Source: Bacteroidales bacterium
GTDB taxonomy: Bacteria; Bacteroidota; Bacteroidia; Bacteroidales; PUMT01
Length of the DNA stretch: 34,486 bases
Direction of reading: 5' to 3'
Assembly (NCBI GenBank): GCA_007132715.1
Contig: SLOE01000121.1
Span: forward strand, 1 to 34,486
Position numbers and translations under genes: made by a program. The notes beneath the pieces are model-generated. The model was given only the letters and a program-made list of their open reading frames with translations, made no database searches and was not told where the DNA came from. Below are positions 6,002 to 7,900 of this stretch, piece after piece. Position 1 is the stretch's first letter, and each line of letters starts with the position of its first letter.

Positions 6002-6454
6002 TTATTTTCTTCTCCAGTCCATCCAGCCATCTGCCTGTGCCGGTCTGCTTCCATCGAGCATCAAGCCGCTGGATGTTCTCAAATGATCGGGGCTTTGATA
6101 CCAGAAGTTCAACCTGATGGGTCTGTGGTGATGGATTATAAGGTTACGCCTGTTTTCAGAACCTAACATCTCAACATCCCATCCCAGCAAATTTAAAGTC
6201 TCATCAAGGCTGCTAAATGCCATTTGTGCGGATCCATCCTCGTTCAATGTGAGTTTAACTTCTTCTCCCTGGAATTCACCAACCCAGGTACCGGCAAAAG
6301 AAAAGTCTTCACCAAATACTGCCGGTGCATCTTCACTTTGAACCGATTCTTCTTTCTGGTCAGCTCTTTCCCCATTGCCGGCACTGCCACATCCCCAAAA
6401 TAAAAAACTGAACAACAATACAGCCAGCGTATAAAAAACGGGAACTTTTTTCAT
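6002..6454 (-). CDS. small lipoprotein of unknown function (150 aa)
   Basis: Starts MKKVPVFYTLAVLLF with a hydrophobic core and lipobox FWGC followed by GSAGNGE, a standard lipoprotein signal (SPase II) with the +1 Cys near residue 23. After an acidic linker, the mature part (about FSFAGTWVGEFQGEEVKLTL onward) resembles a small beta-rich, lipocalin-like or META-like fold, but I do not assign a family. The frame stays open upstream to 6715. That extension has no export signal, is rich in Cys/His and looks non-coding, so the start at 6454 is preferred. It is flanked by gene remnants, so it may be a recent passenger. Confidence 0.65.
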   Translation of the reverse strand: MKKVPVFYTLAVLLFSFLFWGCGSAGNGERADQKEESVQSEDAPAVFGEDFSFAGTWVGEFQGEEVKLTLNEDGSAQMAFSSLDETLNLLGWDVEMLGSENRRNLIIHHHRPIRLNFWYQSPDHLRTSSGLMLDGSRPAQADGWMDWRRK

Positions 6455-6599
6455 AACAGAATTTTTAAAGTTAATAATTATGTATTGGCACGTACATTGA
6501 CACTCCCTCCAGCAATCAAAACAAATTAACAGTCCGTTTTTCTTAAATATGCCTGCTAATATACAACTTTTTAAATGCCCCAAACCCATATTCGAAAGA

Positions 6600-6759
6600 A
6601 ATTGCTGTTGGATTTTCTGGACTGTATCAGTTCTTTTAGGATTACCAAAGTTCCTGCCAGGCACAGTATGCGCGTGCCCATAGGCTACTTGTGATGGAAC
6701 ACAAGGTTTAATCATTCAATGAACGTTAAACAGTTATATTAAGCGACTTCTTGTCGCAC
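6600..6759 (-). mobile_element. possible group II intron 5'-end fragment (domain I)
   Basis: On the minus strand, from 6759, the sequence opens GTGCGACAAGAAGTCGC, which fits the GUGYG-type 5' end of bacterial group II introns. It continues through stretches such as AGTAGCCTATGGGCACGCG and GGCAGGAACTTTGGTAATCC that recall domain I of such introns. No reverse transcriptase/maturase is present, so at most a fragment remains; its inner boundary is uncertain. The call rests on remembered family patterns and needs a covariance search. Confidence 0.35.
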
Positions 6760-6820
6760 TACAGTGGTGTGAGAGGTTCTCCCCGTCAGTCACGGCTGGC
6801 GGGGCAGCCTGCTCGATTAC
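6757..6820 (+). mobile_element. possible group II intron 3'-end fragment (domains V-VI)
   Basis: The plus strand reads CACTACAGTGGTGTGAGAGG, like the 3' strand of domain V and its linker. Next comes a hairpin CCCCGTCAG / CTGGCGGGG (6781-6789 with 6796-6804, 9 bp with one G-T pair and a 6-nt loop), then GCAGCCTGCTCGATTAC. The CCTGCTCGAT ending resembles the CCTACTCGAT 3' ends of many bacterial group II introns, with the branch-point A expected in the stem base (inference). The 5' strand of domain V is missing. It ends 11 bp before the Fic stop codon. Confidence 0.42.
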
Positions 6821-6830
6821 AGGGCGTTTT

Positions 6831-7871
6831 TCATTTTATTGAATAATTTGTACCAGGTCCAGTTCCATGTTTCTCAATTAAATTTTTGGCTAGTAACCCC
6901 GGTAATAATTTCTTTACGGTTGGAACTGGTATTCCTAAATTATTTGCTATCTCACCTGATTTACATCCTGGGTTATTCTCTATATAAACCAAAACAGATT
7001 TTTCTTTAGGGGTTAGCTTTGCTTCAACACCCTTAGTAGCTAATTTCATCATCAATTGTTCCTGAATATTGCTGAGTGCATCAAAGAAAAAATTTATCCA
7101 ACCAGAAACATCTTCATGTGGCCGGTGCGATTGACAATTCCTTAGTACACGGTAATATTCAATTTTCCGACTTTCTATTTCATGTTCAAAGCTCACATAT
7201 TGAATCCACTTATAACCATTTTTGAGTAGTAATAATGTTGAAAGCAAACGGCTGAGTCTTCCATTTCCATCCTGGAACGGATGGATGCTTAAGAATTCAT
7301 ATGTAAACAAAGCACATTTTACAAGTGGATGTGTCTTTGTGTCTTTATGATACCATGAAATTAACTGCCTCATAGCATCCTGAGTTGGAAAGCCGGGTTC
7401 GGTAGTTTTAAATATTATCTGTTTGGAACCATCAGGTAATGTCGCTTCAATAGCATTACTATGTTGCTTATAATCACCTTTGTGCCATACGTCTTTTTCG
7501 CTATATTTTAATAAAAGGTTATGCAAGCTTTTAATACTATTTTCTGCTATTGTAATATCAAAGTAAGATTCAGTAATTAAATCCAGAGCATCAAAATATC
7601 CGATCACTTCTTGAGAATCTCTATCCTTGATTTTACATATATCGAGATTGTTCAATAAAACTTCGACCTCTTTATCTGATAATTTTGAACCTTCAATTCT
7701 GGTAGAAGCACCAACACTGCGAATTGTAGCAAAAGACTTTAGCTGCTTGAGACTTTGACCTTCTTTTTTCTCAATCGTTGTCCAGGAAGCATCAAACCTA
7801 TCAATTTGACTAATCAGGTTAATTAAGTCCCAATCTATCTTTAAATTAAATGTATGCACCTTATTATCCAT
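6831..7871 (-). CDS. Fic family protein with N-terminal inhibitory helix and C-terminal winged helix
   Basis: Fic enzymes transfer AMP, or sometimes other nucleotides, from a nucleotide donor to protein hydroxyls. The catalytic motif IHPFQDGNGRLSR (residues about 196-208) is intact, including the catalytic His and the phosphate-binding DGNGR loop. An inhibitory motif STRIEG (about 56-61) matches [S/T]xxxE[G/N], placing it with Fic proteins that silence themselves through an N-terminal helix, so no separate antitoxin is needed. The C-terminal 60 residues (SGEIANNLGIPVPTVKKLLP) look like a winged-helix DNA-binding domain. ATG at 7871 is preferred; the six codons upstream begin with TTG. The 346-aa length is normal for this class. 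The region is AT-rich. Its target is unknown; self-regulation through the winged helix is plausible. Confidence 0.9.
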   Translation of the reverse strand: MDNKVHTFNLKIDWDLINLISQIDRFDASWTTIEKKEGQSLKQLKSFATIRSVGASTRIEGSKLSDKEVEVLLNNLDICKIKDRDSQEVIGYFDALDLITESYFDITIAENSIKSLHNLLLKYSEKDVWHKGDYKQHSNAIEATLPDGSKQIIFKTTEPGFPTQDAMRQLISWYHKDTKTHPLVKCALFTYEFLSIHPFQDGNGRLSRLLSTLLLLKNGYKWIQYVSFEHEIESRKIEYYRVLRNCQSHRPHEDVSGWINFFFDALSNIQEQLMMKLATKGVEAKLTPKEKSVLVYIENNPGCKSGEIANNLGIPVPTVKKLLPGLLAKNLIEKHGTGPGTNYSIK

Positions 7872-7900
7872 AGTCAAATATAACAACAATTCAACATATT

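Follow-up and report, generated by a model that had tools for sequence, protein, structure and literature searches.

The DNA analysed here (the window, 34,486 nucleotides) is contig C55 of the draft genome G000, an assembly of 171 contigs that is 85% complete. Two minus-strand genes border the stretch of interest: the Fic/DOC gene of a cassette at 6831..7889 (Pfam Fic, 57.4 bits) and a lipoprotein-like gene at 6002..6454 (MKKVPVFY..GCGS), the latter recognised from the list of open reading frames and its sequence, a Pfam search having returned no match for it. Between these genes lie the remains of two group II introns, here called A and B, with the exact 5' end of B on the minus strand meeting A on the plus strand at 6759|6760. 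Intron A is represented by its last 58 nt (6760..6817, plus strand), comprising the 3' strand of domain V (6760-6776), domain VI (about 6777-6811) and the 3' end CTCGAT (6812-6817). Its 3' exon, at 6818..6830 on the minus strand, is the R''-side remnant of an attC-like site following the Fic stop codon, by comparison with the homologue in G309:C160. About the first 96 nt of B are left (6664..6759, minus strand), consisting of the 5' end GTGCGAC at 6759 and the start of domain I; the inner limit at 6664 was placed by eye, and a putative, degenerate continuation of domain I at 6549..6663 on the same strand is uncertain, corresponding to the weak tail of an RF02012 alignment. Beyond the B remnant, the GTTATG at the start of the lipoprotein-like gene (6459-6454) may represent the R' core of an attC site.

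The minus strand from 6759 (GTGCGACAAGAAGTCGC...) opens with GTGCG, in agreement with a GTGYG 5' end, and aligns with relatives of B, one of which, in the complete genome G103, scores 87.4 bits against RF02012 (D1D4-7). Positions 6681-6759 of the window are 87% identical to two places in that genome, and the B copies in G103 and G486 are intact by nature. Other copies of B reach 60-98 bits against RF02012 in 8 of 10 matches, and RF00029 was recovered in two B relatives, at 40.4 bits (L059; gathering threshold 40) and 38.7 bits (L056). The first-pass annotation had read a group II intron 5' end on the minus strand from 6759, as the relatives confirm, and had proposed Rfam models as a check. Under a lax threshold RF02012 matched the minus strand at 6706-6549 with 22.7 bits (E 0.01), below its gathering threshold of 34, and a scan of the whole window at gathering thresholds returned no match. 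The same annotation had also advised looking for intact copies elsewhere in the genome. Searching the window's own genome, an 85% complete draft, with RVT_1 gave no match, and thus no partner was found there for either remnant.

On the A side, window positions 6760-6817 resemble the 3' ends of introns in relatives (74-92% identity), with many of the matches beginning at 6760. The domain VI of the window and the domain V of the relatives both fold, the relatives' typed domain V sequences forming a hairpin with a two-base bulge that lies one base pair away from the joint. The earlier description of a domain V 3' strand, domain VI and a CTCGAT end on the plus strand was therefore sound in content, with its start now moved from about 6757 to 6760. 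Class assignments come from the reverse transcriptase (RT) of one relative each, the RTs themselves having been lost from the window. For A, the RT of the relative in G315 scores 334 bits to 7uim, which we take to be a IIC enzyme, 332 bits to the GsI-IIC RT and 128 bits to LtrA. For B, the RT of the relative in G103, an intron with the loop ACGAA and so not of the kind inserted in domain V, reaches 526 bits against the 6me0 maturase, presumably the IIB enzyme of T. elongatus, and 138 bits to LtrA. On these scores A is best described as IIC-like and B as IIB-like, and the suggested fusion of two copies of one intron does not apply, as A and B differ in kind. Several IIC-like introns (L018, L025, L034, L039, L045, L084) also have short palindromic hairpins inserted within domain V or close to it.

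The surroundings of A are those of an attC-like site. The Fic gene is 92% identical (1028/1120) to a cassette on contig C160 of a related genome, G309, our empty-site reference, with the aligned part ending at the very border of A; the uninterrupted homologue reads CGCCCTGTA-ACAAAGTG.., which sets the 3' border of A to within a base or two. An attC-like repeat comes after the Fic gene in G309 and recurs there behind another gene. Because the Fic alignment ends at the intron border, A appears to have inserted in the attC-like site of the Fic cassette, antisense to the cassette, with B in the sense orientation. G309-type attC halves were sought in the window with up to 3 mismatches, and none were found. 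The G309:C160 contig also encodes a 372-aa protein of the phage integrase family, which scores 108 bits in its best piece against an integron-integrase model with a cut-off of 265; given this score, and an attC recognised by eye rather than by a model, "integron" is here a reading from context. The locus itself (L097:6539-7657 and the next 8 kb) is integron-like, with attC-like repeats and a probable toxin-antitoxin pair.

The joint between B and A is real, recurrent DNA. Scanning 393 genomes of the order gave matches across it in G000, G348, G590 (two places) and G642, as well as a match with short overlap only in G453. A pattern scan of genome contigs yielded seven stretches carrying the joint, including one in the draft genome of the isolate Cyclobacterium lianum (strain CGMCC 1.6102). 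Of these seven, one repeats the G348 locus and another a G590 locus, and a further pair represents a single locus, identical over 3 kb, in two MAGs. Searching the C. lianum genome produced 12 matches, eight with B sequence and four with A only. Altogether 15 distinct sites in nine genomes carry the joint (the locus shared by two MAGs counted once), six of them in C. lianum and nine outside Cyclobacterium, listed with patterns built from known copies that more diverged copies would escape. A blastn search of plasmids and an exact-pattern scan of viral contigs gave no match. The head-to-head orientation first noticed in the window is thus correct and widely repeated. An assembly chimera, one of the explanations offered at first, or a random inversion might be entertained for a fragmented draft in which RTs gave no match, but the same joint occurs in diverged sequence in separate assemblies of different organisms, one of them an isolate, and we give this explanation almost no credence. 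A mobile element of about 152 bp with fixed ends was ruled out, as other copies reach further to the left. In G348 (L012:1320-1505) the B remnant continues into a fragment that resembles the end of an IS66-type transposase.

The position of the joint within A is equally constant. At 14 of the 15 sites 16 nt separate it from the CTYT that opens the shared antisense domain V motif, and at the remaining site, in G453, domain V has an extra hairpin. The hosts differ nonetheless: the domain VI loops of the A introns are unrelated between sites, and the exon at the joint varies (CACTGTA, CACTGCA, CACTGAT, CATCCGC, CACCGTA, CACCGAG, AACCGTA and others). Where A copies retain the 5' strand of domain V, the domain is continuous and B absent in all 28 rows (27 places; 23 rows flagged by script, 5 by eye). 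The CAC at the joint, initially proposed as a CAC/GTG microhomology, is the complement of the first three bases of B, and uninterrupted copies of A read ..ACG|TACAGTGG in their own right, so that microhomology is not required. The first nucleotide of B occupies one domain V position whichever the host intron, which a random inversion or a microhomology joint would not bring about; we reject both, and insertion at a precise point with subsequent deletion fits better. The original suspicion of a rearrangement was a fair one, as the deletion we propose is itself a rearrangement, even though the three explanations named at the time fit poorly.

The specificity of B was approached through its 5' end. 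With the 5' exon ignored, the exact pattern of the B 5' end occurs at 27 places in the 393 genomes, the upstream exons being judged by eye. Each of the five places with the loop AAGAA (the window and four known before) has an antisense domain V upstream, and none of the 22 others does (0/22); by eye, 19 of the 27 are unrelated palindromic repeats or gene sequence. Palindromic repeats of the GTGCGACTTGAAGTCGCGCCCCGA type, which look unrelated to introns, matched the 17-base pattern in several genomes of the order (L104, L105, L107, L112, L114-L118, L120, L122-L126).

In the alignment of B relatives EBS1 can be read in a loop of domain I, and in G103 and G589 compensatory changes in EBS1 and exon preserve 7/7 pairs each. 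In the domain V-type copies, EBS1 pairs at 5-6 of 7 positions with the antisense domain V in a single register in all six copies used, that is at 6 of the 15 joint sites, EBS1 having been lost in the window. The total EBS1-IBS1 score of 12 introns was 123.5, above all 5000 permutations (mean 74.6, maximum 122.0), with loops read by eye and the register left free. These were 12 of the 16 aligned introns, CL73k, CLC16, L165 and L166 having been dropped (loop missing, degenerate or unplaceable) and CL61k standing outside the alignment. Inside the domain V group alone the EBS1 signal is modest. The median domain V-type score is reached by 13% of random exons of like composition, and in an A end of the CAGTGG type other sites reach up to 12.5, against 6.5 for the real one; EBS1 alone therefore does not pick the site. 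In CTCGGTGG-type A the real site ties for the best score. Judged by eye, the 3' exons of B relatives mostly begin with A, and the domain V site would give C.

If B lies inside A, then the 5' region of A should be found beyond B, and in C. lianum this is the case: in the sense of A, the inverted B is preceded in these units by the A 5' region and followed by the A 3' end. A model of the A 5' region built from four seeds of other genomes matched two of the seven B-bearing units on G696:C22 (E below 1e-3), which the remaining units resemble, and gave no match to shuffled sequence. Our first model, with ten seeds, recovered six of the seven, one of them partly; six of its seeds were C. lianum units, which makes those scores circular. 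The four-seed model found nothing in the window or in L012, L056, L059, L062, L063, L065 (where the contig ends inside B), L174 and L190. On this C. lianum contig (L079/L080, about 61-77 kb) eight same-strand genes stand in array, most of them separated by A/B composites, and the genes beside the array are presumably a conjugative transfer operon. To the left of the inverted B, G697:C26 has the first half of an RT on the plus strand, probably part of the same A intron, the A 5' region there being judged by eye and unmatched by the model. At this locus (L190:8600-8690) two RT genes enclose a long palindrome, tail to tail at their PQGG motif, an arrangement that a large nested insertion might leave on collapsing through a hairpin.

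The repeated occurrence of composites permits another reading, in which A with B inside formed on one occasion, or on a few, and was then propagated as a whole, through cassette recombination, array duplication or mobilisation in trans through A, in which case recurrence need not mean repeated homing. The seven B-bearing units on one C. lianum contig, several of which share the A-side sequence of the inner joint, would suit such spread, and local spread in C. lianum can be compatible with homing. As a general explanation we consider it unlikely: a domain V of the CTTTCACAGAACCGTA type is found in one C. lianum unit, the domain VI loops have no resemblance between genomes, and the A of G697 looks different by eye.

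No locus keeps both junctions of B, and the second junction, a B 3' end followed by the antisense domain V 5' strand, was found in 0 of 393 genomes. In L056 and L059, domain V-type B introns with intact 3' ends run into other sequence, with no 5' half of A. It seems likely that a domain V-type B recombined here with a second, leader-type B in the same orientation downstream in the array, which would delete the 5' half of A and leave a canonical 3' exon. These intact 3' ends could also be accounted for by a process akin to the twin priming of L1, which gives the same topology. Here an A cDNA that stopped at the domain V bulge, a position beside a stem, would have joined a B cDNA reaching the exact 5' end of its RNA, in one attC integration event. 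Such an event would predict neither the pairing of domain V-type EBS1 with the antisense domain V exon nor the A 5' sequence beyond B in the C. lianum units, and we regard it as distinctly improbable, more so than a spreading composite.

Taken together, we think it reasonably probable that the window holds the worn remains of a IIB-like intron B that homed in antisense orientation into domain V of a IIC-like intron A resident at attC, followed by deletion. In this model A would first have entered the attC-like site behind the Fic cassette, antisense to the cassette gene. B, guided by EBS1 pairing with the antisense domain V sequence, would then have entered the antisense strand of domain V by reverse splicing, at a point one base pair off the two-base bulge, so that it pointed with the genes and split the catalytic domain of A. 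Deletion of the 3' part of B, the 5' part of A and the rest of attC would finally have left the B 5' end and the A 3' end face to face. The sequences themselves establish both intron ends, the joint and how often it recurs, the attC-like surroundings and, in C. lianum units, A 5' sequence beyond the inverted B; the route of reverse splicing, the order of events and the deletion are what we infer.

A broader proposal, which we make tentatively and hold to be less probable than the history of the window itself, is that this IIB subfamily acts as a predator of retroelements, targeting the antisense domain V of IIC introns and destroying them. The IIC copies in integron arrays would provide dispersed landing sites, with recombination between the direct repeats of the subfamily reshuffling the cassettes. 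If so, evolution would have turned the catalytic core that group II introns share into a target for their rivals, giving a natural example of hyperparasitism among retroelements and of competition for integron attC sites. The proposal would also make sense of a class of head-to-head intron fragments otherwise liable to be dismissed by annotators as chimeras. The antisense domain V target is open to retrohoming assays.

Nested group II introns are already known. In Thermosynechococcus elongatus one intron homes site-specifically into another to form twintrons (PMC2882425), and in Methanosarcina acetivorans the insertions of nested introns are balanced by deletions (reviewed in PMC4424553). The inner intron of T. 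elongatus is flanked by two start codons of the outer ORF (PMC2882425), as opposed to domain V here, and the twintron passages of both papers make no mention of antisense or domain V insertion, whereas B is antisense to A and thus cannot splice out to restore it. We rejected the label twintron, as B is not in splicing orientation within A. In the openly accessible literature, including the accessible parts of PMC5894124 and PMC8919778, we found no prior description of antisense insertion into, or targeting of, domain V. IIC-attC introns sit antisense in attC sites (PMC7923331; PMC4424553), and A resembles them in its attC-like site, its antisense orientation to the cassette and the RT of one relative that is closest to IIC. 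It differs in being reduced to its last 58 nt and cut by another intron. A close parallel to B is UHB.I2, a group IIB1/CL1 intron in a cassette array (PMC7923331). As with UHB.I2, B relatives of the ACGAA kind follow a GTTA core of attC type, the RT of one of them (G103) is IIB-like, and several B relatives lead at their 3' ends towards the start of a gene; unlike UHB.I2, the AAGAA kind has for its 5' exon the domain V of a IIC-like intron in antisense. Among B relatives with the loop ACGAA or one near it, the upstream GTTA core was present in 6/6 read by eye.
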